From: Acetobacteraceae bacterium
Lineage (GTDB): Bacteria; Pseudomonadota; Alphaproteobacteria; Acetobacterales; Acetobacteraceae
Assembly (NCBI GenBank): GCA_947475245.1
Contig: CANJLW010000039.1
Span: 1-34,678 of the forward strand
Reading direction: 5' to 3'
DNA: 34,678 nucleotides
Shown here in pieces: positions 11,015 through 29,570 of the stretch. The notes beneath the pieces are model-generated. The model was not told where the DNA came from. It was given only the letters and a program-made list of their open reading frames with translations, and did no database searches. The first letter of the stretch is position 1, and each line of letters opens with the position of its first letter. The position numbers and the translations under genes are program-made.

Positions 11015-11222
11015 TTTTGGGTCGACCGCCCTGACTGCCGATAGTTCGATGATAGGGATGCGGTTCTGCCTCGGTCGGCCGTTCCCGGCAAGCCAATGTC
11101 TTCGATGGCCGGTTCCTTCGCCTTACGCGACGCGTCAGACGACCGCCGCCGGAATTGCAATGCGGCCTGTTCCCTGCACAACAAACATCGCCTATGGATG
11201 GCCGGATGTCCGAGGGAAGCCC

Positions 11223-12215
11223 ATGACGACTCTGGTTACAGGCGCCACTGGTTTCGTTGGTTCGGCTGTAGCGCGGGTGTTGCTCGCACGCGGCCACGAT
11301 CTGCGCCTGCTCGTGCGCAAGAACAGCGATCGCCGCAATATCGCGGAACTGGACGCCGAAACCGTTATCGGCGATCTGACCGACCCTGATTCGCTGGACC
11401 GCGCGGCCTCCGGCTGTCGATTCGTGGTCCATGTTGCCGCCGATTACCGCTTCTGGGTGCCCAATCCCGCGGACATGCTCAATGCGAACGTCGAGGGCAC
11501 CCTGGCGATCCTCCGTTCCGCGACCAAGGCCGGCGCCGAACGCATCGTGTACTGCAGTTCCGTCGCCGCCCTGGGCCAGATCGGTGACGGCACACCCGCG
11601 ACCGAAGACACACCGGCTGTCGAAGCTGACTTTGTCGGCATCTACAAACGCTCCAAATTCCTTGCGGAAAGGGCGGTGCTGGAAGCGGCGCGTAAGGATT
11701 CGATCCCGCTGGTCATCGTCAATCCCGCCGCGCCGGTGGGACCGCGGGACATCAAGCCCACGCCGACCGGCAAGATGATCCTCGACGCCGCCGCGGGGCG
11801 CGTGCCGGCCTATATCGATACGGGGCTTAATCTGGTCCATGTCGACGACGTCGCGGAAGGACACGCCTTGGCGTTGGAGCGCGGACGAATCGGCGAACGC
11901 TATATTCTGGGCGGCGAGAACATGCCGCTGAAGGATATCCTGACCCTGGTCGCCTCTGTCGCGGGGCAACGACCGCCGTCAATCCGACTGCCCGAAGCCA
12001 TTATTTGGCCGATCGCCTTCGCGATGGAACATTTTGCGCGCGTGACCGGCATCCCCCCGCTTATGACCCGCGACCACCTGAAAATGGCGCGAAAGAAGAT
12101 GTACTACTCGTCGCGGAAAGCCATCGAGGAACTTGGCTTTCAACCACGCCCCGTGCGTGGCGCGGTTGAAGACGCTGTCGCCTGGTTCCGCGCAAACGGC
12201 ATGCTCCGCCCATGA
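11223..12215 (+). CDS. hpnA: Hopanoid-associated sugar epimerase/dehydrogenase HpnA
   Basis: This 330-residue extended short-chain dehydrogenase has the NAD(P)-binding motif TGATGFVGSAVARVL at its N terminus, the active-site Tyr and Lys in IYKRSKFLAE, and VNPAAPVGPRDIKPTPTG and GERYILGGENM, all typical of HpnA. It is thought to modify the sugar or ribose-derived side chain of extended hopanoids. The ATG at 11223 is preceded by GAGGGAAG, a good ribosome-binding site, and starts the Rossmann fold; longer in-frame versions upstream have no homology. Its stop overlaps the hpnB start (ATGA), the first of several couplings in this operon. Confidence 0.94.
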   Translation: MTTLVTGATGFVGSAVARVLLARGHDLRLLVRKNSDRRNIAELDAETVIGDLTDPDSLDRAASGCRFVVHVAADYRFWVPNPADMLNANVEGTLAILRSATKAGAERIVYCSSVAALGQIGDGTPATEDTPAVEADFVGIYKRSKFLAERAVLEAARKDSIPLVIVNPAAPVGPRDIKPTPTGKMILDAAAGRVPAYIDTGLNLVHVDDVAEGHALALERGRIGERYILGGENMPLKDILTLVASVAGQRPPSIRLPEAIIWPIAFAMEHFARVTGIPPLMTRDHLKMARKKMYYSSRKAIEELGFQPRPVRGAVEDAVAWFRANGMLRP

Positions 12216-13327
12216 CGACGCTGACGTGGATCGCTCTGTTCGTCTGGCTTTACCTTATCTTCGGCCATGGCCGCTTTTGGCAGTCCGGCCCCGTGCTGCC
12301 GGCACGGAAGCCCAGCGGTTATTTGCCGGTTACGGTCGTCGTACCCGCCCGCGACGAAGCTCCTGTGATCGAAGCCAGCCTGCGTTCGCTTCTGGCGCAA
12401 ACCTACCCCGGTCCGCTCAACATCATTCTCGTCGACGACGGCAGCACCGATGGAACCGGTGACATCGTTCGGCGGATCACCGATCCACGTTTGCGGGTCA
12501 TCACCGGTACGTCACGACCGGCGGGATGGAGCGGCAAGCTCTGGGCCGTCTCCCAGGGGATCGAAGCCGCCGGCGACGCGAAGCTTATTCTGCTGACCGA
12601 CGCCGACATCCTGCACGCCCCCGACCATTTGCTGGCGTTGACCGCCAGGATCGAACGCGGCGACCTCGACATGGTCTCGGAAATGGTCGAACTCGCCTGC
12701 GAAAGCCCCGCCGAGAAGGCGCTTGTGCCGGCTTTCGTGTTCTTTTTCCAATTGTTGTACCCCTTCGCCTGGGTCAACGATCCGCAACGCGCCATCGCCG
12801 CCGCGGCCGGCGGAACTATCCTGATCCGACGACGCGCCTTGGATCGCATCGGCGGAATAAGCGCCATCAGAGGTGCGTTGATCGACGATGTGGCATTGGC
12901 GACGGCGGTAAAAGCAGGAGGAAAAATCTGGATCGGCCACGCCGCGTTGGCACGGTCAGTCCGCCCGTACCCGACCGCCGGTGACATCTGGCGCATGATC
13001 GCTCGGACCGCCTATGTCCAACTTCGCTTCTCACCGACACTCTTGCTTTTGACGACAGTCGGCATGGCTTTGGTATGGCTTCTGCCGCCGCTCGCCGCGC
13101 TCTTCGGCGGCGGCACGATGCGTATGCTCGGGATCGTCACCTGGATCATGATGACCGCTTCCTATCTTCCGACCTTGCAGCGGTTTCGGCGATCCTGGTT
13201 TTGGGCGCTGGGATTGCCATTGATCGCACTGTTCTATATGGCCGCAACCATAGGATCAGCCGTCAACCATTACCGAGGCCGAGGTGTCGCCTGGAAAAGT
13301 CGAACCTATTTGAGTGCTGATGTATGA
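12212..13327 (+). CDS. hpnB: Hopanoid-associated glycosyltransferase HpnB
   Basis: The 371-residue family 2 glycosyltransferase has an N-terminal membrane helix, then VVVPARDEAPVIEASLRSLL and ILVDDGSTDGTGD for the nucleotide-sugar site, TDADI as the DxD-type metal site, and three or four C-terminal membrane helices. HpnB is found in hopanoid operons and is proposed to glycosylate hopanoid precursors; a direct activity is not firmly established. It overlaps hpnA and hpnC by 4 bases at each end (ATGA), so translation is coupled. Confidence 0.94.
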   Translation: MTTLTWIALFVWLYLIFGHGRFWQSGPVLPARKPSGYLPVTVVVPARDEAPVIEASLRSLLAQTYPGPLNIILVDDGSTDGTGDIVRRITDPRLRVITGTSRPAGWSGKLWAVSQGIEAAGDAKLILLTDADILHAPDHLLALTARIERGDLDMVSEMVELACESPAEKALVPAFVFFFQLLYPFAWVNDPQRAIAAAAGGTILIRRRALDRIGGISAIRGALIDDVALATAVKAGGKIWIGHAALARSVRPYPTAGDIWRMIARTAYVQLRFSPTLLLLTTVGMALVWLLPPLAALFGGGTMRMLGIVTWIMMTASYLPTLQRFRRSWFWALGLPLIALFYMAATIGSAVNHYRGRGVAWKSRTYLSADV

Positions 13328-14178
13328 ACGAGCACATTGATCCACATCAGTCCGACAACGTCGAGGTCTGGTCCGGCAAGGATCGCGGCGATGAAAACTT
13401 TCCGGTCGGCTCCATTGTCATCCGCAAGGCGCTACGGCCGCACATCCACGCCTACTACGCCTTTGCCCGTAACGCGGACGATATCGCCGATTCCACCACC
13501 CTGTCCCCGCAGGATAAGGTGGCGCGCCTTGATGTCATGGAGGACGTTCTCCTTGGCCGCCGCACCAGTGGTTCGCCATCCGCGAGCGCGCTCCGCGAAA
13601 GCCTGCGGACCACCAAGGTATCGACCGTCCACGCCACGGACCTGCTGATCGCCTTTCGTCGTGACGCGACCAAGAAGCGCTATGCGACGATCGATGAGCT
13701 CTACAACTACTGCCGCTATTCCGCCGTCCCGGTGGGCCGCTACGTGATCGACCTGCATGGTGAAAGCCATGAGTGTTATTCCCCGTCGGACGCACTCTGT
13801 ATCTCGCTGCAAGTGCTGAACCACCTGCAGGACTGCAAAAAGGACCTTGAAACCCTCGACCGCTGCTATATTCCGCAGTCGCTGCTGGAACACTTCGGTG
13901 CCTCTGTCGCCGATGTGCGACGCGAAAGGGAAACGCCGCAGCTGCGCCGGGTATTCGTCACCCTGCTGGATCGCGTCGATCGGTTAAACCAGGCCGCCAT
14001 GGAACTCCCGGAGATCGCGAAGGACCGCCGGTTGCGCGTCGAAACCGCATTGATCTGCGGTTTGTCCCGCCGCCTCGCCCGCCGACTGGCTGAGAACGAC
14101 CCGCTGGAGAACCGCGTGAAACTCACCCGATCGGATGCGATCCTGAGCACGCTGCGTGCCCTGATGTTTCTGACCTGA
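13324..14178 (+). CDS. hpnC: Hydroxysqualene synthase HpnC
   Basis: This 284-residue squalene/phytoene-synthase-fold protein has NFPVGSIVIRKALRPHIHA at the substrate entry, the first Asp-rich motif YAFARNADDIADS, and SLQVLNHLQDCKKDLETLDR in place of the second. The LNHLQDCKKD form is characteristic of HpnC rather than HpnD. HpnC converts presqualene diphosphate (from HpnD) into hydroxysqualene, which HpnE then reduces to squalene. The start overlaps the hpnB stop (ATGA) and the stop overlaps the hpnD start (TGATG). Confidence 0.95.
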   Translation: MNEHIDPHQSDNVEVWSGKDRGDENFPVGSIVIRKALRPHIHAYYAFARNADDIADSTTLSPQDKVARLDVMEDVLLGRRTSGSPSASALRESLRTTKVSTVHATDLLIAFRRDATKKRYATIDELYNYCRYSAVPVGRYVIDLHGESHECYSPSDALCISLQVLNHLQDCKKDLETLDRCYIPQSLLEHFGASVADVRRERETPQLRRVFVTLLDRVDRLNQAAMELPEIAKDRRLRVETALICGLSRRLARRLAENDPLENRVKLTRSDAILSTLRALMFLT

Positions 14179-15041
14179 TGCGCATCGCGCGACCGCCTCT
14201 CGGCGCCGATCAATCCGACCTCGACGCGGTCGAGGAAATCGTGCGCGCCGCCGGCACATCGTTCTATCAGGGGATGCGTGTTCTGCCGCCGGATCGGCGT
14301 CACGCGATGTATGCGATCTACGCATTCTGTCGCATCGTCGACGATATCGCGGACGAGGAAGGGACGCTCCCGGAAAAGCGGCGCCAGCTTGAAGTGTGGC
14401 GACAGTACATCGCCGGTCTCTATCGTGGGGAGGCCGAAGGCCCCGTCACGCGGGTCCTGGTCATCGCCGCGAAGCAATTCGCCTTGCGATTGGAAGACTT
14501 TATCGCAGTCATCGACGGCATGCAGATGGACGCGGAAACGGTCATCGTCGCGCCTGATTTCGCCACCCTGGACCTGTATTGCGATCGTGTCGCCGCCGCC
14601 GTCGGACGCTTATCCGTCCGGGCCTTTGGCGACTCCTCGCCGGCCGCCGACCGCGTCGCGCACGCTCTCGGGCGAGCCTTACAGTTGACCAATATTCTGC
14701 GCGACCTGAAAGAAGACGCGGATCGGGGCCGATTGTACCTGCCGCGCGAGTATCTCGATGATGCGGCGGTGCCGCATGACCCAGCGGCCGCACTTGCCCA
14801 TCCTGCCCTACCCCGGGTGTGCGCGCGACTGGCCAGGGTCGCGCAGGATCACTTCCGGACCGCCGCCGCCGAGATGAACCACTGCGATCCCCGTGCCATG
14901 CGACCCGCTCGGCTGATGGGCGCGACCTACGGTGCGATCCTGACCAGACTGGAACAAAGCGGCTGGAAGGACCCGGCGGAACGCATCAGCCTGCCGAAAT
15001 GGCAAAAGCTTTGGTTGGCATTTCGCTACGGTCTGTTCTGA
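14178..15041 (+). CDS. hpnD: Presqualene diphosphate synthase HpnD
   Basis: The 287-residue protein has the two Asp-rich motifs of head-to-head prenyl synthases, YAFCRIVDDIADEEG and LQLTNILRDLKEDADRGRLY, and SFYQGMRVLPPDRRHAMYAI at the N terminus. HpnD joins two farnesyl diphosphates to presqualene diphosphate, the first step of the HpnDCE route to squalene. It begins inside the hpnC stop codon. The usual next genes, hpnE (squalene-forming flavoprotein) and shc (squalene-hopene cyclase), are not in this window, so the pathway must be completed elsewhere. Confidence 0.95.
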   Translation: MRIARPPLGADQSDLDAVEEIVRAAGTSFYQGMRVLPPDRRHAMYAIYAFCRIVDDIADEEGTLPEKRRQLEVWRQYIAGLYRGEAEGPVTRVLVIAAKQFALRLEDFIAVIDGMQMDAETVIVAPDFATLDLYCDRVAAAVGRLSVRAFGDSSPAADRVAHALGRALQLTNILRDLKEDADRGRLYLPREYLDDAAVPHDPAAALAHPALPRVCARLARVAQDHFRTAAAEMNHCDPRAMRPARLMGATYGAILTRLEQSGWKDPAERISLPKWQKLWLAFRYGLF

Positions 15042-15155
15042 CCCGTTCGATAGCCCCCAGTTCCATGCACGCCTGACCCGCCCGCCGGGGGAACCACGGA
15101 TTCGGGAATTCACTTGCGCGACGCTTTTGCCGCATCGCATAATGACTCCAGCATC

Positions 15156-15191
15156 ATATCGTTAATTCTTTGCCTCAATTATTAACGATAT
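15156..15191. promoter_or_regulatory. AT-rich perfect inverted repeat upstream of the small Lys-rich gene
   Basis: ATATCGTTAAT (15156-15166) is repeated inverted as ATTAACGATAT (15181-15191), 11 bp with a 14-base spacer, in an AT-rich island of otherwise GC-rich DNA. It lies 114 bases after hpnD and 46 bases before the GTG of the next gene. The shape suggests a binding site for a dimeric regulator or a promoter region; as a terminator for hpnABCD it would lack a following U-run. No matching regulator is coded here. Confidence 0.5.
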
Positions 15192-15237
15192 CGGCAACGC
15201 CCTACGAACCGTAACGCCTAATGCCGGAGCACCGAAC

Positions 15238-15429
15238 GTGTCAAAATCGATTAAGCGCCTGATCGCTGCCATCGTCTTCGCTCTTCCGATTGCCGCACTG
15301 GTATCGGCCCCCGCCATGGCGGCCAAGCCGCGCAAGGCGAAGACCAGCATGGTGTCAAAGCCCTCCAAAAGCTCACATGCGTCCAAGGGCGTTCACAAGA
15401 CGCACAGCAAGGCCAAAAAGGCCGCCTGA
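15238..15429 (+). CDS. Small exported Lys/Ser-rich basic protein, unknown function
   Basis: A 63-residue product begins with a clear signal peptide: basic MSKSIKRL, a hydrophobic core (about 9-24) and APAMA-A as a signal-peptidase site near residue 29. The mature part is about 35 residues, nearly all Lys, Ser, Thr, His and Ala (KPRKAKTSMVSK, KTHSKAKKAA), very basic and probably unstructured. The GTG start has GGAG about 9 bases upstream. Similar short Lys-rich periplasmic proteins occur widely in alphaproteobacteria without known function; binding to acidic surface polymers or nucleic acids is only a guess. The gene stands alone between hpnD and the convergent hyfI-like gene. Confidence 0.65.
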   Translation: MSKSIKRLIAAIVFALPIAALVSAPAMAAKPRKAKTSMVSKPSKSSHASKGVHKTHSKAKKAA

Positions 15430-15448
15430 CGGTCGCCTGCACTGAACA

Positions 15449-15476
15449 CCGCGACAGGGCCTAGCCACTGTCGCGG
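15449..15476. terminator. Hairpin between convergent genes, probable bidirectional terminator
   Basis: CCGCGACAG (15449-15457) and CTGTCGCGG (15468-15476) form a perfect 9-bp stem with a 10-base loop. It sits in the 74-base gap between the small basic-protein gene (plus) and the hyfI-like gene (minus), where a terminator is expected on both strands. Neither side has a strong T-run, so the efficiency is uncertain. Confidence 0.6.
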
Positions 15477-15503
15477 CCAGATTACGGATCGTCGGCACTG
15501 CGA

Positions 15504-16010
15504 TCATCGGCTGTTCGCTTCCAAAAGCGCCCGTAAGCCGGACAAGATGCGACCTGGATTGGGCGGACACCCACTGATCGTCAGATCGATGGGCACGCTG
15601 GCCCCTGCACCGTCCAAGACAGCGTAACTTCCCTTGAACACGCCTCCGTCGATGGCACAATCGCCGACTGCAACGACCCATTTCGGGTCCGGCGTTGCGT
15701 CCCAGGCCTGTTCCAAAGCCTCTCGCAAATTCCGCGTCAGGGGGCCTGTGACCAGCAGCACATCCGCCTGCATGGGTGCCTCGACAAAGCGTATTCCAAA
15801 CCGTTGCAGGTCGTAGGCGACCCCGGTCAGGGCCTGAAGCTCCAGCTCACACCCACTGCAACTGCCGGCGTTGACGTGCCGGATTGACAGGCTGCGCCCA
15901 AGACGAACCTGAGAAGCCGCGTCGAGCCGAGCGGCCAATGATGCGACTGTTGCGGGATCGACGGATGCCCGCGCGGTCAGCCGTTCCGCCAAGCGCCGAA
16001 CGATCGCCAT
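15504..16010 (-). CDS. hyfI: HyfI/NuoB-like [4Fe-4S] subunit of a hydrogenase-4-related complex
   Basis: This 168-residue protein matches the small subunit of group 4 hydrogenases and complex I NuoB. All four cluster ligands are present: C51 and C54 in GSCSGCELEL, C118 in VGDCAIDGG and C148 in SGCPPNP, which would hold the N2-type cluster next to the large subunit. It is the last gene of the six-gene operon, 13 bases after hyfG, with a strong GGGAGG before its ATG. With ferredoxin-like subunits absent from the operon, this is the only iron-sulfur site seen in the complex. Confidence 0.9.
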   Translation of the reverse strand: MAIVRRLAERLTARASVDPATVASLAARLDAASQVRLGRSLSIRHVNAGSCSGCELELQALTGVAYDLQRFGIRFVEAPMQADVLLVTGPLTRNLREALEQAWDATPDPKWVVAVGDCAIDGGVFKGSYAVLDGAGASVPIDLTISGCPPNPGRILSGLRALLEANSR

Positions 16011-16023
16011 CTTGCCTCCCTAT

Positions 16024-17517
16024 TCAAAGGTCCATTCCGGAGGCCGATAGGCCCAACGAATGCCTGATCAACGGCGCATCGTCGATCGAAGCCCCGACCA
16101 GCGTCGTTTCGGCCAGCTTCCATAGTGCCCAACCCGGATCGCGCGGGAACACGCCGACGATCTGGCCGTGGTCCAGGCGCAGCCAGCACCAAACATCGCC
16201 CCTGGCGGATTCGGCGTTCCCTACCCCCTCTCCACTGTCCATGGGCATTGCGGCGGCGAACGGTCCGTCCGGCAAAGCCTCGATCAAGGCCGCCAGCATC
16301 CGCGCGCTTTCCGCGATCTCGGTCCGGCGCAGGCGACAACGCGCCAAGGCATCCCCTGTCGTGGCCAAGGGAACCTCGCCGAGAATGCCGCGATACATCG
16401 ACGACAGTCGCCGAACATCGAACGGCACCCCTGCCGAACGGCCAACGATCCCGCCGACCGCCAAACGAGCAGCCAGTGTAGGATCGACTACGCCGACACC
16501 GCTCAAACGCGCCGCAAAGGCCGAGTGCGAATGACCTTGCCCCAGGTTCGGCAACGCGGCATCGATGATATCGAGCATCTCCCGCAACACTTCCGGTGCC
16601 TCAGCCGCGATATCGATGGCAACACCGCCCGGAACCACGCAATCCATCATAAGCCGGTGACCGAACGCGCGCTCGCTTGTTGTCGCCAGAACTTCCCGCA
16701 AGCGAGCACAACGCCGCTCGATTGCCGACACGCCCACCAAACCGGCTGTCGTGCCAAGAGCGAGCAAGTGCCCCGCGATGCGTTCGATCTCCGCCATGAT
16801 CACGCGCAATATCCGCGCGCGCGGCGGGACCTCGACGCGCAGTGCGGCTTCGGCTGCCTCGGCGAAGGCAATCGAATGCGCGACCGTCGCATCGCCCACC
16901 AGTCGGGACGCAAACCGCGCCGCCGTTCGGGGGGATTTTCCGAGCATCAGCGACTGGGTGCCCTTGTGGGTGTAGCCGAGACGACATTCGGCCTGAACAA
17001 TGCGGTCGGCGCGCAGCGTCAAGCGCAGGTGATCGGCGTCCTCGATCAGTTCCCTGACCGGCCCGACGGGCAGTTGAAACTCCCCGTACCCAACGTCCAG
17101 CCGAAATTCCGGCGGTTCGGCCTTCGCGACCGCCATCCCCGGACGATCCGCCAAGGGGTGGGACATAGGCCAGTGTCCGTGGTCGAGCCAGGGCCGGTCG
17201 TCGCCACCGCCGAGGGCACGATGCCCCCAGAGGTCAGCGACCATGCGTTCGAACAGGATCGCTCCGGGCCAGGCCGCCGACACCGACGGATAGCCGCCGC
17301 TCTCGACAGGGCACGACACCACCGCGGCCGCCTCCTCGACTTCGTCGAGCAACAGCGCGTGCACCTGATCGGCCTCCGCCCAAAGGGCGAGCAGGCGAAC
17401 GGCCTTCCCCGCCAGGGTTTCAGCCATGGCCGACCATTCCGTCTGCGTCAGAAGATGATGCAGCCACGGGTCACATCGTTCGGCTTGCGTGGATTGGAAT
17501 GTATCGAACGCGCTCAT
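16024..17517 (-). CDS. hyfG: HyfG-like large subunit (NuoC-NuoD fusion) without Ni-binding cysteines
   Basis: The 497-residue protein joins a NuoC-like domain (about 30-130, with YPSVSAAWPGAILFERMVAD) to a NuoD/hydrogenase-large-like domain (about 135-497). In active group 4 hydrogenases the first Ni ligands lie in a CGxC motif; here that place reads V-G-D-A (207-210) within SRLVGDATVAHS. At the C terminus the DPCxxC motif is replaced by IDDAPLIRHSLGL. Without these four cysteines it cannot hold a NiFe site, so this is a non-hydrogenase relative, in the class called energy-converting hydrogenase-related (Ehr). The likely catalytic partner is a quinone or another redox protein, not H2. ATG at 17517 overlaps the hyfF-like stop (ATGA). 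Confidence 0.9.
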   Translation of the reverse strand: MSAFDTFQSTQAERCDPWLHHLLTQTEWSAMAETLAGKAVRLLALWAEADQVHALLLDEVEEAAAVVSCPVESGGYPSVSAAWPGAILFERMVADLWGHRALGGGDDRPWLDHGHWPMSHPLADRPGMAVAKAEPPEFRLDVGYGEFQLPVGPVRELIEDADHLRLTLRADRIVQAECRLGYTHKGTQSLMLGKSPRTAARFASRLVGDATVAHSIAFAEAAEAALRVEVPPRARILRVIMAEIERIAGHLLALGTTAGLVGVSAIERRCARLREVLATTSERAFGHRLMMDCVVPGGVAIDIAAEAPEVLREMLDIIDAALPNLGQGHSHSAFAARLSGVGVVDPTLAARLAVGGIVGRSAGVPFDVRRLSSMYRGILGEVPLATTGDALARCRLRRTEIAESARMLAALIEALPDGPFAAAMPMDSGEGVGNAESARGDVWCWLRLDHGQIVGVFPRDPGWALWKLAETTLVGASIDDAPLIRHSLGLSASGMDL

Positions 17518-18629
17518 CGAGCGTTCACCAAACCGGCCATCAGAAGATCGCTCACCAAATCGGGCAGGCACCAACCCAGCAGCGTCGTCAGGGCCAGAGG
17601 CAGCAAGCCCAGACTCAGATTCGGCGGCGGCCGGACCTGCAGCTGTCGCACAAGAAGCACAGCCTGCGTGGCCAATGCCAACGCCAGCAGTACGGACAGA
17701 AACGGGGCGCGCTCAAACCCGTAGTTCAGCACCAGAACCAGGCTCGGGAAAGCCGCGAACGGCGGGATCGCCATGGCGCTCAGCCGACCCAGTCGCCGCA
17801 CTCCGGCGTCGGTGCCGGCGATTGCGGCGGACGCGGCCGACAGCGTGACGAGGGTCAGATGAAAGATGCCGGCAAAGATCGCCGGAGCCGATCCAAGACC
17901 GAACGCAAACAGTACCACGCCACATTGCGTGAGCACCGGCAGCGCGATTCCCGCGCTCTCGGCGGGTCGCGTGGCGAACCAGGCAGCGCAGAGCGCGACG
18001 ATGACGACCCCGGCATAAAGCAGTGGTTCCAGCGCTGCGCCATTGGCCCAATGCAGGCGCAACACCAGCAGCAGAACCGGCGCGGCCAGCACCGGCACAA
18101 GACTGACCACCGCGGCGAAGCCAAGGACGACACACCCCATGGCAAGCAACGGCATGCCGAACCCGCCGATCGTCATGGACAAACCAAACAGGGCGATCCC
18201 CAGACCGGCCCCGACCGTCGGCAGCCGATCGCGCCGCCGCGACAGAAGGGGGTACTCCCGCGCCAGGCAGGCCACGGCAATCGCCAGCCATCCGATCGAC
18301 GCGTCCGTGATCAGACAGGCCCAAATGCCGCCCATCAAGACGATCTCATCGGCGATCCGACGAGCCGTCGGCCGACCGCTCCGTCCCAGTCCACGCACAT
18401 GATCAACGATCGAGACCAGAGCGATCAGGCAGGCGAACCAGACGGTCAACGTATCGGTACGCACAACGACCGAAGGCGTTCCGTCACCCCACGGAAGCCA
18501 AAGGAGCGCGGCCATTGTCGCTGTCGCCGCAGCCAGATCAATCCATGGCGCAAACCACCTGCCACGCGCAGCAACCAGGCTCGCCACGGTCAGAAGCGGC
18601 AGGCAGCCGAGGAAGACAAGGATCGTCAT
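17514..18629 (-). CDS. hyfF: HyfF-like short antiporter-type membrane subunit
   Basis: The 371-residue, very hydrophobic protein has about twelve predicted membrane helices and sits in the hyfF position. It is much shorter than HyfF (about 525 residues) and diverged. The helix VVLFAFGLGSAPAIFAGIFHLT matches the antiporter-like TM7 region; the His is kept (H257), but the Lys eight residues later is Ala (A265). The TM5 Glu region reads ASIGWLAIAVA, with no Glu. This argues against a normal proton channel. ATG at 18629 overlaps the hyfE-like stop; a start at 18641 is also possible. Assignment rests mostly on position and the weak helix match. Confidence 0.72.
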   Translation of the reverse strand: MTILVFLGCLPLLTVASLVAARGRWFAPWIDLAAATATMAALLWLPWGDGTPSVVVRTDTLTVWFACLIALVSIVDHVRGLGRSGRPTARRIADEIVLMGGIWACLITDASIGWLAIAVACLAREYPLLSRRRDRLPTVGAGLGIALFGLSMTIGGFGMPLLAMGCVVLGFAAVVSLVPVLAAPVLLLVLRLHWANGAALEPLLYAGVVIVALCAAWFATRPAESAGIALPVLTQCGVVLFAFGLGSAPAIFAGIFHLTLVTLSAASAAIAGTDAGVRRLGRLSAMAIPPFAAFPSLVLVLNYGFERAPFLSVLLALALATQAVLLVRQLQVRPPPNLSLGLLPLALTTLLGWCLPDLVSDLLMAGLVNAR

Positions 18630-19111
18630 GACGCCCGCCACAGGCGGCGAAGCGACGGCTCACAGGCCAGCACGGCATAGCATAACAGGATCGGGCCCAC
18701 TGCGATCGGGGCCAACAGGATCGCGCTGCCTTGGATCGACACGATCCCGGCGACGACAGAAGCAGCGTTCCCGCGTTCGGTAATGCGCACAAGACCGAGA
18801 AGCAACATCGACAAGGCCGCCCAAACCGAACCAAACAGAACGGCAATCAAGACCAGACCCGCGCCCAGGCCGACAAGCCATGGATGGTCGGTCTGGTCGT
18901 CCCGCGCTCCATACCGGTAGACAAACCAGGGTCCGACGATCGCACCGGTCACGGCATGGGCGCAGGCGATCCATGCATGACCGTTCAACACTACGACGGT
19001 CGCCACCGTCAGCGACTGCATCGTCAATAGTGGGGCAACGACCCCGACGCGTCGCGTCCACAACGGCACGATGCCGAGGATGACCGCCACGGCGGACAGC
19101 GTGCCGGTCAT
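18626..19111 (-). CDS. hyfE: HyfE-like small membrane subunit (NuoK-related)
   Basis: The 161-residue protein has about five to six membrane helices (starting MTGTLSAVAVILGIVPLWTR) and fits HyfE, the NuoK-containing small membrane subunit of hydrogenase-4 and related complexes. The family's two buried Glu residues are not obvious. ATG at 19111 overlaps the hyfC-like stop (ATGA); a longer frame upstream lies inside hyfC and is not real. Similarity is modest, and gene order hyfB-C-E-F-G-I supports the call. Confidence 0.75.
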   Translation of the reverse strand: MTGTLSAVAVILGIVPLWTRRVGVVAPLLTMQSLTVATVVVLNGHAWIACAHAVTGAIVGPWFVYRYGARDDQTDHPWLVGLGAGLVLIAVLFGSVWAALSMLLLGLVRITERGNAASVVAGIVSIQGSAILLAPIAVGPILLCYAVLACEPSLRRLWRAS

Positions 19112-20025
19112 GTCGCCCCCCCGGACAAAAGCGTGAGCGCCATCGACAGTACCGCGCCCAGACCCGCGACACCGAGGATCTGCGCAAGCTGCCGGCGCCG
19201 CGCTTTGCCAATGTATCCGGCCACGAGCGACAGTACGGCGACACAGGCGGCACTCCGGACCAGCCAGCCGATGGCGGCCAGGCCCTGGGCGATCGGATCG
19301 GCATGCGTGTCCGATACCGTCCACGGCAGGCAAAGCCCGCCCAACAGGTTGACCCATCCCACAAGGCGCAGTTCGGTATCGATCCGAACAAGGACCCAGT
19401 CACGGCCGGCGAACGCCGCTTCCAGACGATCATCCGCGCCAAACAGGTCGACGCAGGCAACGACCGCGAGCGCGGCCAGCACGAATGGGATTGCCTCCGA
19501 AGGGCCGACGCCGCTGTCCCGCAGCAGGCCGATCATCCGATCCAGATTGGTCGTTCCCGTCACCATCGCAAGGGCGATCACGACCAGCATGCCGACCGCT
19601 CCGGTCATGGTGGCCAAGGTCATGGCGCGATGTGCCCCGTCCGCGCCCGACGCCGAACCGGTGTCGACCACGCCCAGGATGAGCGCGATCCGCCCGAAGG
19701 CCAGCAAGCCGAGGATCAGGATGCCGTCGGCAATCGGGGCGGACAGCAGTTCCAGCGCGTAGCCGGGGATCAGGACCACCGCGGTCGCGGAACAGGCAAC
19801 GGCAACGATCGGGGCCAGTCGGAACAGCGGTGACTCGTTCTCCACCGGCAGGCGTCGCTTGCGCATGGCCTTCATGATATCGCGCCACGGCTGAACGAAG
19901 GGGGCCGGAGTTCGTTCGGCCATCACCGCCGCCAACCAGGCGCGCTCGCAGGCGAACAGCCACACCGCCAAGCCGATCATGCCGATATGCAGAAACTGAC
20001 CGAAAAGGGCGAGCAGCGTTGCCAT
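19108..20025 (-). CDS. hyfC: HyfC/NuoH-like membrane subunit
   Basis: This 305-residue protein has about eight membrane helices and the first-loop motif PFVQPWRDIMKAMRKRRL followed by SPLFRLAPIV, which matches the quinone- or hydrogenase-docking loop of NuoH/HyfC proteins (usual pattern QPYRDLxKLLRK). A second conserved loop, EAAFAGRDWVLVRIDTELRL, corresponds to the amphipathic NuoH helix region with acidic residues. It would anchor the HyfG/HyfI arm to the membrane. It begins one base after the hyfB-like gene and overlaps hyfE by 4 bases. Confidence 0.87.
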   Translation of the reverse strand: MATLLALFGQFLHIGMIGLAVWLFACERAWLAAVMAERTPAPFVQPWRDIMKAMRKRRLPVENESPLFRLAPIVAVACSATAVVLIPGYALELLSAPIADGILILGLLAFGRIALILGVVDTGSASGADGAHRAMTLATMTGAVGMLVVIALAMVTGTTNLDRMIGLLRDSGVGPSEAIPFVLAALAVVACVDLFGADDRLEAAFAGRDWVLVRIDTELRLVGWVNLLGGLCLPWTVSDTHADPIAQGLAAIGWLVRSAACVAVLSLVAGYIGKARRRQLAQILGVAGLGAVLSMALTLLSGGAT

Positions 20026-20026
20026 C

Positions 20027-21790
20027 TCAGCCGAACAATCCCGCTATTCCCAACAGCGCGACCATGGCACCCAGGAGCAGCCATCGGCGGAACGGTATCG
20101 ACGCGCTGAACCATGTTCGCCAGCTCACGACGGGCAGGGTCGGGACAAATCCCAGCCCGCCGGTTTGCGTGACCGGGTCGCCGAAGGGCAACCAAGCCGG
20201 CGGCGGCGAAAACCCGCCGGACCAAACCGTGGTCGGCGGTCCCGTTTCCTCGCCGCGTCGTGACACGCGCAGGATCGGTATGGCGAGGCCAAGCACCAAC
20301 AACAGCGCGATCGACGTGGCGAACCCCATGGGATCGTCGATCCTGACGGCTGGGGACGCTGTGCCGCTTGCGGCGGTCGCCGCCGATCCGAACCAGGTCA
20401 TCGCATTGGGAAACAGCCCCAGCAATGTCGCACACAGCGCCAAGCCGGCAAGGGCGGGCCATTCGCCACGGGCAATATCCTCCGCCGCCGAACCACGCGG
20501 CGTGCGTGGGCGTCCCAGGAGCGCGGTCGCGCACAGGCGAACCGCGCCGCCCAGCGCCAAAGCGGCGGAGACGGCAAGCGCAACCGATGCCACAAGCAGC
20601 AGCCCGTCCGGCCACGCCGCCCCGGTTCGCGGCGCGACCACGATCGCCTGAACCAGCGCCCAGGCTCCGAAGAACCCGATGGTAGGCGGGATCGCGACCA
20701 GGCCGAGAAGGCCGATCGCCAGGGTGGCGGACATGACGGGGGTCTGGTTCAGCAGCCCGCCCATGCGATCGATGCGACGACTGCCCGCGCTGTCGATCGC
20801 GGCGCGCGCGCCCAAAACCGCCAGGGTGCCGCAAATCGATTGGCCCGCCAGCAGGGCCAGCAGCGCGGCGCGGAAGCCGATCGCGACGGACGGCATGTCG
20901 GCACTATCGGCGATCCCCCCCATCCCCAGGGCAATCAAACACATCCCAGACGGACGCGCGACGGCGAGGGCAACGGCCTCATCAAGCGCCATTGCCTGCT
21001 CGCTCGTCAGCGCGCACCAGACGCAGGCAACCGACCCGATCAAGACCAGCGCGCCACCCCAAATCGAGGCGTCGGCCGGGAAACCGGCTTCCGGCGCCAA
21101 CCGCACCACCATGTAAACGCCGACCACGGGCAGGAGCGCGGCCAGGATCGCGGCGGCGGAGCGCGGCAACTCGGGTCGGCCAAACGCAGGCCACCAGGGC
21201 AACGGCACAAGCCGCAAGCAGAGTCCTCCGCCGATCCAGGCCAGGATCAACCGAACGACGGAGGACCAGGCCGATGCCGACGGCAACTCCCCCAGCCGCC
21301 AGGCGACCATCAGCGACAGTCCGGCAACGATCACAAACACCGGTTGCGGTCCGGCTACCTCCGCCGACCGCCACAGCGCGATCCCAACGACGCAGAAGCC
21401 CAGCGCCAACGTCAGGCCGTCGCCAGCGAGCACCGCCCAGGACAAGCCCGCGAGCAGCATCGACGGCAGGGCCGGCAGTTCGGCGCGCGCCGCGGCCTGG
21501 GTCAACAGCGCGGTCCCCGGCAGCAACAGAAGCGTCAGGCAATAGCCCGACAGAGCATCGAGCCTGAGCAACAGCGCCGAACCGGGCGGCCCGATCGGTA
21601 CGGCCAGCGTCGTCGCGGGCAACGCGATCGCTACGGCCAGCATTGCCAGGACCATCCCGCCCCCGGCGATACACGCCGTCGCACAGGCAAGGGCGCGTCG
21701 TGGGATGGCGGTCGCGAACACGTCGACGATGCCCAGCAGAAGCAGGGCCGCAATGCAGGCCGCCAGCAGGATCGGAATGAGATCGCTCAC
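20027..21790 (-). CDS. hyfB: HyfB-like antiporter-type membrane subunit
   Basis: The 587-residue protein, with about 14-16 helices, is the first gene of the operon. The segment from 309, including GSRRIDRMGGLLNQTPVMSA and AIPPTIGFFGAW, aligns without gaps to the NuoL/HyfB core. At the positions of the usual buried His, Asn-His and Lys it has A312, A315-G316 and C320, and the TM5 Glu position is C133. The family's proton-channel residues thus appear lost, as in the HyfF-like subunit. The C terminus carries a hydrophilic stretch (WSGGFSPPPAWLPFGDPVTQ) like that of HyfB. The start is a GTG with a weak ribosome-binding site. Confidence 0.83.
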   Translation of the reverse strand: MSDLIPILLAACIAALLLLGIVDVFATAIPRRALACATACIAGGGMVLAMLAVAIALPATTLAVPIGPPGSALLLRLDALSGYCLTLLLLPGTALLTQAAARAELPALPSMLLAGLSWAVLAGDGLTLALGFCVVGIALWRSAEVAGPQPVFVIVAGLSLMVAWRLGELPSASAWSSVVRLILAWIGGGLCLRLVPLPWWPAFGRPELPRSAAAILAALLPVVGVYMVVRLAPEAGFPADASIWGGALVLIGSVACVWCALTSEQAMALDEAVALAVARPSGMCLIALGMGGIADSADMPSVAIGFRAALLALLAGQSICGTLAVLGARAAIDSAGSRRIDRMGGLLNQTPVMSATLAIGLLGLVAIPPTIGFFGAWALVQAIVVAPRTGAAWPDGLLLVASVALAVSAALALGGAVRLCATALLGRPRTPRGSAAEDIARGEWPALAGLALCATLLGLFPNAMTWFGSAATAASGTASPAVRIDDPMGFATSIALLLVLGLAIPILRVSRRGEETGPPTTVWSGGFSPPPAWLPFGDPVTQTGGLGFVPTLPVVSWRTWFSASIPFRRWLLLGAMVALLGIAGLFG

Positions 21791-21897: not shown

Positions 21898-22737
21898 TCA
21901 GAGCATGTCCAGCCCTTGCTTGCGGGTCGGCGGCCGGTGCGCGCGGTCGATCTCGGCCAGGTCCTCTTCGGACAGGACAAGCGCCGCCGCGGCGGCGTTA
22001 TCCCGCACATGGGCGGCGGTCGTTGCCTTGGGGATCGAGATCACGTTACCCGAGCGCATGCCCCAGGCAATCGCGACTTGCGCCGGACCAACCCCCAACC
22101 GACGCGCGACAGTTTGCAACGCCGGGGAGCGCAACAGGCGCGACGGGCTGTGCGCCAACGGCGAATAGGCCATGATCGGGATGCGTTGTTCCGCGCACCA
22201 GGGCATCAGATCGAACTCAATCCCCCGACTGTCGGGATGGTACAGCACCTGATCGGCCGCGCAGCCCTGCCCATTCGGCACGCCGACCAGTTCCTTCATA
22301 TCGGCGGTATCCAGATTGGATACGCCCCAATGACGGATCTTCCCCGCCGCCTTCAGCGCCTCGAACGCCGCGACGGTCTCGCTCAGCGTGTAGCCACCCC
22401 GCCAATGCAGCAAGTACAGGTCGATCCGATCGGTCTTCAGACGGCGCAGGCTGCGCTCGCAGGCGGCAAGCGTCCCCTTGGCGGAGGCATTGTGCGGATA
22501 GACCTTGCTGACGATGAACAACCGATCGCGCAGACCGGCGGCGGCCTTGGCGACGATTTCCTCCGCCCCGCCGTCGCCGTACATCTCCGCCGTGTCGATC
22601 AGCGTCATGCCGAGGTCGATGCCCAGGCGCAGCGCCGCGACCTCGTCTCCGGCGGCGGCGGCCCGCTCCCCCATGTTCCAGGTGCCCTGCCCCAGGGCGG
22701 GAACGGTTTCGCCGTCCGGCAGCGCGACCTGACGCAT
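21898..22737 (-). CDS. Aldo/keto reductase
   Basis: The 279-residue protein has the AKR TIM-barrel and its catalytic tetrad: Asp and Tyr in IDTAEMYGDGGAEE, Lys in FIVSKVYPHNA and His in LYLLHWRGG. Near the C terminus VISIPKATTAAHVRDN is the NADPH-binding motif. It reduces aldehydes or ketones with NADPH; the substrate is not known. The best start is ATG at 22737, one base inside the dipeptidase stop (TGATG); the longer upstream frame is antisense to nothing and lies inside the dipeptidase. Translational coupling suggests shared use with the dipeptidase. Two hairpins follow the stop. Confidence 0.92.
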   Translation of the reverse strand: MRQVALPDGETVPALGQGTWNMGERAAAAGDEVAALRLGIDLGMTLIDTAEMYGDGGAEEIVAKAAAGLRDRLFIVSKVYPHNASAKGTLAACERSLRRLKTDRIDLYLLHWRGGYTLSETVAAFEALKAAGKIRHWGVSNLDTADMKELVGVPNGQGCAADQVLYHPDSRGIEFDLMPWCAEQRIPIMAYSPLAHSPSRLLRSPALQTVARRLGVGPAQVAIAWGMRSGNVISIPKATTAAHVRDNAAAAALVLSEEDLAEIDRAHRPPTRKQGLDML

Positions 22738-23780
22738 CAGGCCGCCATTTGCTCGACGACGCGCATCACCCGCAGGAAATTGCCGCCCCAGAGTAGCTGA
22801 ATGGCGGCGCGGTCGTATCCTCGGCGCACCAGTTCGGCGGTGACGTTCGCGCTTTCGCCGGCGTTGTGCCAGCCGGTGAAGCCGCCGCCACCGTCGAAAT
22901 CCGACGAGATGCCGACATGCTCGATGCCGATCCGTTTGACCGCGTAATCCACGTGATCGGCGAAATCCGCGACCGTAACCTCCGCCGGCTTGGCGCCGGG
23001 CTTCAGGAAGGATGCGACCGCGGTAATCTGGATCACGCCCTTGACCTTGCGGATCACGTCGAGTTGCCAATCCATCATGTTGCGGGGGTGATCGCACAGC
23101 GCGCTGATGCAGGAATGGGTGGACACGATCGGCGTGCTCGATGCCTCCGACGCTTGCAGCATCGTGTCGCGGGAAACATGCGCCACGTCGACCAGCATGC
23201 CGACGCGGTTGAGTTCCTTGACCGCCGCGACACCCAGAGCCGACAGCCCGCCATGCTCGGTATCGCGATCCCCGAGGTCGCGGCGGGGATTGCAGGAGTC
23301 CGCGAGGGCGTTGTGGCCATTATGGGTCAGCGTCAGATAACGCGCGCCCAGGGCGCGGAAGCGCGCGATTCGTGACAGATCGGCACCGACCGCGAAGCCG
23401 TTCTCGACACAGGGGACGATGGCCAGCACGCCGTCGGCCTTCGCCGCCTCGATCTCATCCGCGGTTTGGGTGACGCGCGCGGTGATCCCGGCCTCGGTCC
23501 GCCCCATCGCGTTGATGTGTTCGAGCATGGCGACGGCGCGCGCGAAGGCACCATCTTCGGTCGCCGGGGTGCGGGCGGTCTGCGGGACATAGGCGACGAA
23601 GCAACCAGCCGACAGCCCGCCCCGAACCATTTTGGGCAGATCGACCCGCCTGGTTCCATCCTGGAACGCGTCGGGGCCGGTTGGCCAGGGGATGTCGATA
23701 TGGGTGTCGAGGGTCACCAGCGCCCGATGCAGGGCCAGGGTGTCCGGGGAAAGGGAGTCCGGGGATGTCGCGTCATTCAT
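22737..23780 (-). CDS. Membrane dipeptidase family (peptidase M19)
   Basis: This 347-residue metallohydrolase has the M19 pattern: first zinc ligands in DTHIDIPWP, a bridging Glu in PCVENGFAVG, His in VDVAHVSRDT and STHSCISALCDHPRN, and Asp in ISSDFDGGGG. Bacterial members cut dipeptides, including some with D-residues, or related amide bonds. The ATG at 23780 is chosen because homology starts soon after; a GTG at 23807 is an alternative. There is no signal peptide, so it is probably cytoplasmic. It is 94 bases downstream of the BKACE gene and overlaps the aldo/keto reductase. Confidence 0.92.
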   Translation of the reverse strand: MNDATSPDSLSPDTLALHRALVTLDTHIDIPWPTGPDAFQDGTRRVDLPKMVRGGLSAGCFVAYVPQTARTPATEDGAFARAVAMLEHINAMGRTEAGITARVTQTADEIEAAKADGVLAIVPCVENGFAVGADLSRIARFRALGARYLTLTHNGHNALADSCNPRRDLGDRDTEHGGLSALGVAAVKELNRVGMLVDVAHVSRDTMLQASEASSTPIVSTHSCISALCDHPRNMMDWQLDVIRKVKGVIQITAVASFLKPGAKPAEVTVADFADHVDYAVKRIGIEHVGISSDFDGGGGFTGWHNAGESANVTAELVRRGYDRAAIQLLWGGNFLRVMRVVEQMAA

Positions 23781-23812
23781 AGGCGCAGGCTTACAGAATT
23801 TCGGCACCGAAG

Positions 23813-24840: not shown

Positions 24841-26325
24841 TCAGGCGCGGATGCGCGCCAGGGTCGCCTGGGTCGAATGACCGGGCAGCAAATCGGTCAG
24901 GGCAACCGTCCCGCCCCATCCGCGCACCAGATCGCCGCCCACGATATCTTCCAGCATATGGTTCGCGCCCTTGATCAGCAGATCGGGCCGCAATGCCTGG
25001 ATCAACGATTCCGGCGTATCCTCGTCGAAGATGCAGACCAGATCGACGCTGGCCAGGCTCGCCAGGATCGCGGCCCGCGCGGCGTCCGGCTGCACCGGTC
25101 GCGGCGGTTGCATGACCCGCGCGGCGCTGTCGTCGCTGTTGATGGCGACGACGAGACGGTCGCAGCCGGCGCGGGCGGCTTCCAGCATATGCACATGGCC
25201 GGGATGCAGCAGGTCGAAGCAGCCATTGGTGAAGCCGATGCGCCAACCGCGATGGCGCCAGCGTTCCACCAGCGCGACCGCGTCTTCGCGGGAAACAATT
25301 TTTCGCTGGGCGCTGCGCTGCGGCGACAGTGCGGCGAGCAATTCGGCCTCGCTGACCACCGCCGAACCGACCTTGCCGACGGCGACGCCCGCCGCGAGAT
25401 TGGCGATGCGCACGGCCATGGCGAGCGGCAACTGGGCGGCGACGGATGCGGCCAGCACGGCCAGCGCGGTGTCGCCGGCGCCGGAGGTGTCGTAGACTTC
25501 CCCCGCTTCGGCCGGGAAATGCTGTGCCCCGTCTTCGTCCACCAACGTCATGCCGTCATTGCCGCGCGTGACCACGACGGCGCCGAAGCCGAAGGTGTCG
25601 CGCAGGGCGGCGGCGGCGGTGACGATCTCGGCTTCCGTCCCGACAGGCAGGCGCGTGGCGGCGGAGAGTTCCGGGCGGTTCGGCATCACGATGTCGGCAC
25701 CCGCATAGCGGCTGAAATCGGTGCCGCGGGGATCGACGATCAGCTTGCGGCCCATGGCGCGCGACGCCGCCACCAATTGCGCCGGGATGGTCCCGCTGAG
25801 CACGCCTTTGCCGTAGTCGGACAGCACGGTGACGCTGGTCGCCGCCATCGCGTCGCCGGCGATGCGCACCAGGCGTTCGGCGAGCTTCGGGTGGATGGGG
25901 TCGGTCTGTTCCCGATCGGTGCGCAGCAATTGCTGCCCCGAGGCAAAAAATCGGCTTTTGACGGTCGTCGTGCGACGCCCCTGCACCAGCAGCCAGGGCT
26001 CGACGTTCATCTGCCCGCCGATCAGGCCGGTCAGGTCGGAACCGGCAGTGTCGTCGCCGACCACGGAGATGAACGCCACCGCCGCGCCCAGCGATGTCAG
26101 ATTCCGCACGACATTGCCCGCGCCGCCGGGATAAGCGACCTCCCGTTCCGCCATCAGGACGGGAACCGGAGCCTCCTGACTGATGCGGGAAACAGTGCCG
26201 TAGGTAAACTGATCCAGCATCACATCGCCGATGACCATGACACTGGTATGCGCCAGTAATCGGATCGCGGCCGCCAAATCGGGGTTTGGTTCGTCCGGAC
26301 GACGGTTCGACGGAAGTTCGTTCAT
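24841..26325 (-). CDS. hldE: Bifunctional heptose kinase/adenylyltransferase HldE
   Basis: This 494-residue protein combines a PfkB-type kinase (about 20-330: PGGAGNVVRNLTSLGA and the catalytic YDTSGAGDTALAV) with a nucleotidyltransferase domain (about 350-494: FTNGCFDLLHPGHVHMLEA, with the HxGH site at 374-377). It phosphorylates heptose-7-phosphate and then makes ADP-heptose for lipopolysaccharide core. The ATG at 26325 gives a normal length; an upstream GTG/ATG extension has no homology. The ribosome-binding site is weak. No other heptose genes are near, so hldE is separated from the usual LPS cluster. Confidence 0.95.
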   Translation of the reverse strand: MNELPSNRRPDEPNPDLAAAIRLLAHTSVMVIGDVMLDQFTYGTVSRISQEAPVPVLMAEREVAYPGGAGNVVRNLTSLGAAVAFISVVGDDTAGSDLTGLIGGQMNVEPWLLVQGRRTTTVKSRFFASGQQLLRTDREQTDPIHPKLAERLVRIAGDAMAATSVTVLSDYGKGVLSGTIPAQLVAASRAMGRKLIVDPRGTDFSRYAGADIVMPNRPELSAATRLPVGTEAEIVTAAAALRDTFGFGAVVVTRGNDGMTLVDEDGAQHFPAEAGEVYDTSGAGDTALAVLAASVAAQLPLAMAVRIANLAAGVAVGKVGSAVVSEAELLAALSPQRSAQRKIVSREDAVALVERWRHRGWRIGFTNGCFDLLHPGHVHMLEAARAGCDRLVVAINSDDSAARVMQPPRPVQPDAARAAILASLASVDLVCIFDEDTPESLIQALRPDLLIKGANHMLEDIVGGDLVRGWGGTVALTDLLPGHSTQATLARIRA

Positions 26326-26345
26326 CGGGGATGCCGTAACTGGCC

Positions 26346-26359
26346 GCAACCGCGGTTGC
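26346..26359. promoter_or_regulatory. Perfect 14-bp palindrome upstream of hldE
   Basis: GCAACCGCGGTTGC is a perfect palindrome centred about 28 bases upstream of the hldE ATG. The surrounding gap also holds CATGGGAT (26370-26377) inverted as ATCCCATG (26416-26423). It could be an operator or part of the leader; GC-rich DNA makes chance palindromes more likely. Confidence 0.3.
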
Positions 26360-26491
26360 AAGCGCTGTTCATGGGATTGCCGCGAAACCGACACGGTAGT
26401 GCCCAACGGGTTCCGATCCCATGGGGCGCGACCGCGCCGACAGACTTCATCCTAGAACGCGTTTTTTTGCCTGTCGCTCGCAATACCGGCC

Positions 26492-28846: not shown

Positions 28847-29463
28847 GCGAAACGCGATTCTGGCTGATCCGCCACGCCCTGGTCGAGGAAAACGCCCGCG
28901 CCATGTTGTACGGCGTGATGGATGTGGCGCTGTGCGAGACCACCTTGCTGGAACAGGCGCCGATGTACCAGGCCCTGGCGCGTCGCCTGCCGCGACAGGC
29001 CGCGTGGAAGGTCACGCCGCTGTCGCGCACCCGGCGCACGGCGCAGGCGATCTTTGCCGCGGGCTACCCCGCCGCCGACCTCGCGGTGGAACCGGATCTG
29101 ATCGAACAATCCCTGGGCGACTGGCAGGGCCTGCCGCACGACGAACTGCCGCCGAAGCTGGCGATGCCCAAGCATCCGTTCTGGCCGCTGGCCGGCGACG
29201 AGAAGCCGCCCGGCGGGGAAAGCATGGTCGAAGTCATCGACCGCGCCGGACGCACGCTCGAACGTCTGGCCGATGCGCATCCCGGCCAGGATGTGGTGAT
29301 CGTCAGCCACGGCGGCACCATCCGCGCCACCATCGCCCACGCGCTGGGCGTCAGCGCCGACAACTCCCTGCATCTGTCGATCCAGAACCTGTCGCTGACC
29401 CGGCTGGATCGGAACCCGGACGGCTGGCGCGTCGTCTGCGTCAACGAACTGCCGGGATACTGA
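28843..29463 (+). CDS. Histidine phosphatase (phosphoglycerate mutase-like)
   Basis: The 206-residue protein has the phospho-His site WLIRHALVEEN (H11; the family motif is RHG, here RHA) and the second His in VIVSHGGTIRATIAHALGVS, with LSRTRRTAQAIF supplying the phosphate-binding Arg. Family members range from alpha-ribazole phosphatases to sugar or phosphoprotein phosphatases. No cobalamin genes are near. Its overlap with the exporter permease suggests it acts on the exported molecule or its precursor, but this is only inferred from position. Confidence 0.9.
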   Translation: MSETRFWLIRHALVEENARAMLYGVMDVALCETTLLEQAPMYQALARRLPRQAAWKVTPLSRTRRTAQAIFAAGYPAADLAVEPDLIEQSLGDWQGLPHDELPPKLAMPKHPFWPLAGDEKPPGGESMVEVIDRAGRTLERLADAHPGQDVVIVSHGGTIRATIAHALGVSADNSLHLSIQNLSLTRLDRNPDGWRVVCVNELPGY

Positions 29464-29549: not shown

Positions 29550-29570
29550 CGACACGAGGGAGGTTCGTCC

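Follow-up and report, generated by a model that had tools for sequence, protein, structure and literature searches.

A hyf-like operon of Acetobacteraceae with lost proton-channel residues and a conserved iron-sulfur head

Introduction

How complex I and its relatives couple redox chemistry to proton pumping has been asked for a long time. Can the two be parted, and what would be left of such an enzyme once its proton path is gone? A natural test of uncoupled working may be at hand in a lineage of Acetobacteraceae in which evolution has seemingly removed the canonical proton path and kept the rest. The lineage is represented here by contig CANJLW010000039.1 of assembly GCA_947475245.1 (Acetobacteraceae bacterium), analysed over its whole length of 34,678 nucleotides and called the window in the following (G000:C39, in a genome of 5.23 Mb that is 99% complete). 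The operon in question is hyf-like, its genes follow each other in the order hyfB-C-E-F-G-I on the minus strand from 21790 to 15504, and all six open reading frames (ORFs) are open, at the place and in the order described by an earlier note made from the sequence alone.

We assign a probability of roughly 0.55 to the reading that a redox-driven proton pump of the Ehr type, a branch of the complex I superfamily, was turned by selection into a non-pumping, membrane-anchored module with a single cluster, its four membrane subunits having been stripped in one lineage and its Fe-S head conserved and provided with invariant residues of its own. If true, the operon would encode a natural uncoupled relative of complex I. 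The loss of proton-channel residues, from which this reading starts, had been overlooked in the earlier note, and literature searches that left most subscription papers out of reach listed no account of a naturally disarmed member. The features concerned are:

20027..21790, minus strand: hyfB-like gene, GTG start, 587 residues, antiporter-like subunit with none of nine channel residues kept
19108..20025, minus strand: hyfC-like gene (ND1/NuoH homologue), 305 residues, without the coupling loop between transmembrane helices 5 and 6 (TMH5-6)
19405..19450, minus strand: site of the deleted loop in hyfC, approximate, from the alignment
18626..19111, minus strand: hyfE-like gene, 161 residues, conserved Lys replaced by Gly and Glu of the ENG motif by Gln
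17514..18629, minus strand: hyfF-like gene, 371 residues, none of eight channel residues kept, antiporter-like fold predicted
16024..17517, minus strand: hyfG-like large subunit, 497 residues, no Ni-binding cysteines, hydrogenase/NuoD fold
16888..16899, minus strand: first former Ni motif in hyfG, V207-G-D-A210
16054..16083, minus strand: C-terminal former Ni motif in hyfG, DDAPLIRHSL (residues 479-488)
15504..16010, minus strand: hyfI-like [4Fe-4S] subunit, 168 residues, with C51, C54, C118 and C148, the best-conserved subunit

Overlaps of the 4-bp ATGA type, which the earlier note had seen at nearly all junctions, occur at three of the five (C-E, E-F and F-G); hyfB and hyfC are separated by a gap of 1 bp and hyfG and hyfI by one of 13 bp. 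A profile search of the window's proteins, one of the checks proposed in that note, matched HyfI to Oxidored_q6, HyfG to Complex1_49kDa and NiFeSe_Hases, HyfC to NADHdh and HyfB to Proton_antipo_M. HyfF and HyfE remained below every Pfam cut-off, a clue to how far the membrane subunits have been stripped.

A large subunit without a nickel site

Is the operon a hydrogenase? In the alignment with E. coli HyfG and HycE all four Ni-ligand positions of the window HyfG are occupied by residues other than Cys, both CxxC motifs of group 4 [NiFe] hydrogenases are absent, as the note had read from the two altered motifs, and the C-terminus carries no extension of the HyfG/HycE kind. For comparison, a HyfG-like search covered 59 related genomes; the window's genus comprises 33 genomes including its own. 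Of the 578 stretches confirmed in a scan of named genome contigs, the best 80 were included. The 23 rows of the HyfG clade that contains the window are called disarmed in the following, for reasons given below. The 79 armed rows, a sample of near relatives, were chosen by exclusion after removal of this clade, eight duplicate contigs, L137, L146 and the reference rows; by title many of them belong to Acetobacteraceae or Rhodospirillales and some to Methylocapsa and Rhodoblastus. L063, L064 and G033 stand outside the 79 armed rows, the first two having been scored afterwards. At the scored Ni-ligand positions, Cys is absent from the other 22 rows of the clade as well as from all 79 rows outside it, so that a sequencing error does not account for the missing ligands. 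HypD is required for making a NiFe site. No HypD match was found in the window's 99% complete genome (10 of the 59 genomes searched have one), and a NiFe site in the window complex is therefore unlikely, as far as can be read from the genome. The predicted structure of HyfG (predicted local distance difference test, pLDDT, 85; predicted template-modelling score, pTM, 0.89) matches E. coli HycE (7z0s_E) with a TM-score of 0.90; residues 153-160, which form the beta1-beta2 loop by alignment, and residues 494-497 fall below a pLDDT of 50.

Two single rows of these alignments may be mentioned separately. In L039, HyfG is about 40 residues shorter around the region 345-385 of the window HyfG. The HyfG-like gene L072 9832-10911 (G055) keeps both CxxC motifs, the only row other than E. 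coli in the ligand alignment to do so, and its genome has HypD; going by these features it is probably a real group 4 hydrogenase.

Ehr complexes are described as relatives of group 4 hydrogenases without Ni ligands, and charge movement by their antiporter-like subunits is suspected in the same account, outside the sequence definition (PMC6349859). The small Fe-S, ND1-like and antiporter-like subunits are all present in the window. Together with the cysteine-less HyfG, the missing HypD and the tree placement described below, this bears out the assignment to Ehr-type relatives made in the earlier note: judged from the sequence, the operon belongs with the Ehr complexes by descent and by its large subunit. 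The absence of hyfA and hyfH was also seen correctly and is not peculiar to the window, as plasmid pRL11 of Rhizobium johnstonii carries the same six-gene cysteine-less set. In six-gene Ehr operons of this kind, for example those of R. johnstonii pRL11 and Roseomonas-like genera, genes, order, cysteine-less HyfG, four-cysteine HyfI and the lack of HyfA, HyfD and HyfH are all as in the window. A hyfBCEFGI operon is also known from Nitrospira, and the passage describing it does not call it cysteine-less (PMC5596200). The E. coli formate hydrogenlyase (FHL) and hydrogenase-4 (Hyc, Hyf) have homologous subunits, but the window lacks their Ni ligands, a hypD match and the HyfA/H ferredoxin subunits.

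Loss of the proton path from four membrane subunits

What sets the window apart from these six-gene operons is its membrane part. Columns were taken from an alignment that included E. coli Hyf and the Nuo subunits encoded in the window's genome, and were extended to the named loci, counting Lys and Arg as equal and likewise Asp and Glu; the Glu, Lys and His positions of the antiporter-like subunits presumably belong to TM5, TM7, TM8, TM11 and TM12. The armed sets read E-K-K-H-K-H-K-E in HyfF and E-K-H-K-K-H-H-K-E in HyfB, and armed HyfC has a TMH5-6 loop of 29 residues with acids. The window keeps none of the nine positions in HyfB and none of the eight in HyfF, and thus lacks the residues typical of antiporter-like subunits such as NuoL/M/N and MrpA/D. 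This is a property of the whole clade. Disarmed HyfF keeps 0-2 of eight in all 23 rows, whereas armed HyfF has eight of eight in 71 of 76 scorable rows. For HyfB, for which 11 armed rows were omitted because their best hit was the F gene and others at contig ends, 0-1 of nine are kept in 21/21 scorable disarmed rows as compared to nine of nine in 59/63 armed ones. HyfC retains 1-2 of six positions in every scorable disarmed row (21/21) and all six in 66 of 67 armed rows, and its TMH5-6 loop spans 29 aligned residues in all 67 armed rows scored but 15 in the window. The Lys and the ENG-motif Glu of HyfE, present in 63 of 63 ungapped armed rows (four more are gapped), are found in none of the ten disarmed rows for which HyfE was recovered (13 of the 23 were not), and the Glu is Gln in all ten. 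Most scorable armed rows hence keep both pump residues and HyfC loop, as do L168 and L169.

Counts that need no alignment point the same way. The 587 residues of the window HyfB contain no Lys and no His, and neither HyfF nor HyfE contains a Lys, as compared to 14, 11 and 12 Lys in NuoL, NuoM and NuoN of the same genome. The mean number of Lys is 0.7 (HyfF) and 2.7 (HyfB) in disarmed rows as compared to 6.7 and 6.0 in armed ones, in frames that may include untranslated starts; on these counts the window is an extreme case within the disarmed clade. HyfB tail length and a Cys in HyfB loop 1 were also considered as markers and are not claimed, since they did not separate the two groups cleanly.

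Could ions still be pumped through channels rebuilt from other residues? HyfB has kept its length, and HyfF, although shortened to 371 residues from a mean of about 470 in armed relatives, is predicted to fold like an antiporter-like subunit (pLDDT 82.5, pTM 0.82): among the 50 hits listed, its model matches complex I chains of the NuoM/NuoN type with 11-17% identity and TM-scores to the query of 0.64-0.79, which suggests that the fold outlived the channel residues. Moreover, in E. coli FHL, where the residues and loops lost here are discussed for proton transfer, some antiporter-like residues are dispensable, as H2 production is reported as not significantly lowered by the HycC exchanges E135A, H222A, K239A and K336A (PMC9474812). 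Mutants in acidic residues of HycD, where Glu residues of the loop deleted from HyfC are important, lost 98-99% of H2 production according to the same study (PMC9474812). Furthermore, all four membrane subunits are hit. Disarmed HyfC and HyfF have acquired no invariant charged residue, Tyr or Cys of their own, and HyfB has acquired Asp3 and Arg279 alone (HyfE lay outside this test). Rebuilt channels are therefore very unlikely. Proton pumping would rather have been lost along with the channel residues and the coupling loop of HyfB, HyfF, HyfE and HyfC, and the energy-converting part of the Ehr designation, that is, charge-moving antiporter-like subunits, appears unsupported in the window.

Descent and selection

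How did this state arise? The 23 disarmed HyfG rows group together in a single clade that lies within the armed rows, with a support of 98 in the Shimodaira-Hasegawa-like approximate likelihood ratio test (SH-aLRT) in a quick tree of 76 rows and 99/95 in a careful tree of 62 rows, away from E. coli HyfG and HycE, so that the placement among cysteine-less clades expected in the earlier note was obtained. Just outside it in both trees stand L137 and L146 (Rhodovarius lipocyclicus; careful-tree support 94/99 and 94/97), which are partly disarmed in different ways: L137 has no Lys in HyfB and HyfF and keeps the HyfC loop, and in L146 the loop and most of the HyfB set are gone and four of eight remain in HyfF. 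These intermediates suggest that the pump residues were lost stepwise and partly in parallel, with the caveat that L146 is a long branch. The very long row of G033, from a sister genus, falls near L137 and L146 in the quick tree; its HyfB, HyfC and HyfG are disarmed, HyfI lies on another contig and HyfF was not found in this genome.

Within the window's genus two main kinds of HyfG occur. The first (about 44-56% identity to the window, partial matches included) is found in 26 of the 33 genomes and was scored directly at 26 of 26 loci; it includes three further genomes (L076, L080 and L081) that show the disarmed pattern for the parts on their contigs. The second kind (38-41% identity), scored where fetched and otherwise assigned by identity, accompanies the first in 19 genomes and stands alone in seven, and the remaining seven genomes, the window's included, have the first kind only, some of them being incomplete. 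Since an armed-type copy, its state read directly only where fetched, thus accompanies a disarmed one in 19 of 33 genomes and intermediates exist, the steps of the change should be traceable in living sequences. L063 and L064, from two genomes, represent a third cysteine-less type of HyfG at 28-31% identity; here HyfG is followed by HyfI and a HyfB-like gene. Farther off, the operons of R. johnstonii pRL11 and of an Azospirillum thermophilum plasmid are armed, the gene table of the latter listing five of the six genes, HyfE not among them.

Selection on the disarmed genes was estimated from the ratio of nonsynonymous to synonymous substitution rates (dN/dS) in five disarmed pairs and five genes, HyfE being excluded. 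The values are 0.07-0.22 for HyfI, 0.16-0.27 for HyfG, 0.21-0.26 for HyfC, 0.25-0.34 for HyfF and 0.27-0.43 for HyfB, as compared to 0.05-0.21 for HyfF and 0.12-0.22 for HyfB in armed pairs; L049-L088 yielded nothing, L090-L101 two of five genes, and L045 is in two pairs. Positions that are invariant in armed rows (at least 95% identical) are kept by disarmed rows at 83% in HyfI, 59% in HyfG, 36% in HyfB, 32% in HyfC and 13% in HyfF, and by the window alone at 86, 72, 42, 38 and 28% in I, G, B, C and F, respectively. At matched HyfG divergence, with armed rows picked by their HyfF pattern, disarmed and armed identities are 0.71 and 0.67 in HyfI, 0.36 and 0.53 in HyfF and 0.42 and 0.58 in HyfC. 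By these comparisons the genes are under purifying selection in related species, centred on the Fe-S head. The head has features of its own as well. The four cluster cysteines of HyfI, noticed in the earlier note, are present in 22 of 22 disarmed rows (one more has no HyfI on its contig), in 25 of 25 counting the three further genomes of the genus, and in 71 of 72 armed rows. HyfG H450 and HyfI H45, D104 and R160 are invariant or almost invariant among disarmed rows and rare (1-18%) in armed ones, and are, going by the sequence, candidate residues for a function newly acquired by the head.

What could the remaining head do?

The earlier note proposed that electrons pass from a partner outside the operon to quinone or a similar acceptor. 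In its favour, a proton-coupled quinone reductase fed in this way could invoke the homology to NuoB, NuoD, NuoH and NuoL-type subunits and the armed relatives that keep a full pump with the same genes. Complex I (NuoB/D/H/L/M/N) does share its core architecture with the operon by homology, and NuoD, like HyfG, has no Ni cysteines. The window, however, has no NADH module in the operon and no proton-channel residues, its HyfI has a CxxC in place of tandem cysteines, and both quinone-site residues of the 49-kDa subunit, at positions that we take to be those of its Tyr and His, are missing from HyfG by alignment: there is no Tyr at the NuoD RLDY position, and the beta1-beta2 position is Arg. The beta1-beta2 His is absent from all 23 disarmed rows and present in 77 of 79 armed ones. 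In addition, the deleted ND1-type loop of HyfC belongs to the cavity system in relatives.

A partner dehydrogenase was not found either, as the survey of neighbours (109 loci clustered, 40 largest clusters viewed) gave no conserved electron partner adjoining disarmed or armed operons, although the ORF picking also took antisense frames and may have overlooked a small partner gene. Besides hpn genes, the clusters viewed contain various genes that few loci have in common, identified by eye from the beginning of each sequence. No formate dehydrogenase was found among the neighbour ORFs scanned in the window or within 9 kb of the R. johnstonii pRL11 and A. thermophilum operons. Proton-coupled quinone reduction is thus very unlikely.

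We favour instead the view that the role of the membrane subunits has been reduced to anchoring and shaping the HyfI-HyfG head, which would pass electrons via its single [4Fe-4S] cluster between a soluble donor and a small or hydrophobic acceptor. The acceptor would be held at the former NiFe site, and no energy would be conserved. A precedent is MBS, the sulfane sulfur reductase of Pyrococcus furiosus, in which the NiFe site has been lost and catalysis is ascribed to the proximal cluster itself (PMC7684303). The NiFe site is lost in the window too, the HyfI cluster would face the former NiFe cavity like the proximal cluster of MBS (PMC7684303), and a substrate could be converted by a cluster that borders an empty cavity. 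MBS differs in that it keeps the antiporter module and an electron entry subunit and in that its proximal cluster is reported with three Cys ligands, as compared to four in the window (PMC7684303). If electron transfer persists, redox chemistry and pumping would be separable; if it does not, the operon would show how an Fe-S/hydrogenase fold is reused.

The main alternative is such a reuse without turnover of a substrate: the cluster could sense redox state, oxygen or nitric oxide at the membrane, with the membrane subunits merely holding the head. A single cluster, no electron entry subunit, lost quinone determinants and clade-specific invariant residues in HyfI such as H45, D104 and R160 would suit a sensor or regulatory module. 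On the other hand, the conserved neighbours included no conspicuous regulator or signalling gene, two large antiporter-like subunits are costly to keep, and HyfG still retains more than half of its armed-invariant positions (59%). A sensor is thus a possibility to be kept in mind, but a doubtful one.

Several observations weigh against a non-pumping electron-transfer module. There is no second cluster to bring electrons in, the survey of neighbours gave neither a donor nor an acceptor partner, and the missing quinone-site Tyr and cavity loop leave the acceptor side obscure. In Paracoccus complex I, mutations in the membrane-arm subunit Nqo13/ND4 are reported to impair catalysis and to leave the enzyme fully coupled (PMC9802314), so that the old reaction simply running uncoupled is not to be expected; the lineage would either have escaped coupling or have dropped the old reaction. 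A missing beta1-beta2 His is not peculiar to the disarmed clade, as L063 and L064 lack it too and have an armed HyfF (eight of eight), a HyfB close to full, most of HyfC kept and all four HyfI cysteines; His and pump set can thus be lost separately. HyfB identity at matched divergence does not differ (0.42 as compared to 0.44), a comparison that is unusable since its armed rows are partly mispicked F genes. In G033 the HyfI on a separate contig (L166 9008-9493, G033:C6) has lost its first cluster cysteine and has three left, showing that the cluster is not sacrosanct. The window itself is in none of the dN/dS pairs, its nearest relative having 54% identity at best, and its HyfG branch is 0.78 long in the careful tree as compared to a median of 0.27.

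This long branch would fit a slowly decaying relic without function, as would the fast divergence of the membrane subunits, the further decay in G033, where HyfI is also unlinked, and the seven of 33 genus genomes without a disarmed copy. But the HyfG matches are free of stops, B, C, F, G and I are open in the disarmed loci as far as the contigs reach, dN/dS stays between 0.07 and 0.43 in all five pairs, and HyfI is 71% identical at deep divergence. Mere decay is thus highly improbable.

Genomic neighbourhood

On the other side of hyfI lies one further group of genes:

11049..15041, plus strand: hopanoid genes hpnA-B-C-D, placed tail to tail with hyfI, names based on Pfam matches and gene order

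The gap between the two groups is 462 bp in the window (15042-15503). A tail-to-tail hpnD is also found at 16 of the 25 other disarmed loci, with 345-1527 bp between the matched 3' ends; at several of the nine loci without an hpnD match the contig ends a short way from hyfI. Given the convergent layout, shared synteny is a likelier explanation than a hopanoid link, and hpnABCD are probably not part of the hyf system. The gene hpnE often stands beside hpnABCD. The operon as a replacement of HpnE was ruled out, since a full HpnE is encoded elsewhere in the genome (G000:C5).

Upstream of hyfB and on the same strand, after a gap of 107 bp, follow genes for an aldo/keto reductase and an M19 dipeptidase (21898-23807), both of which also have matches in L037, L041 and the armed L090. 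No Rfam family reached its gathering score anywhere in the window. Farther away, an ORF on the minus strand (24841-26406) joins PfkB-type kinase and cytidylyltransferase domains, a fusion that we take to be HldE-like, and an ORF of 543 residues at 28839-30470 has a Ysc84 domain confined to its C-terminal part.

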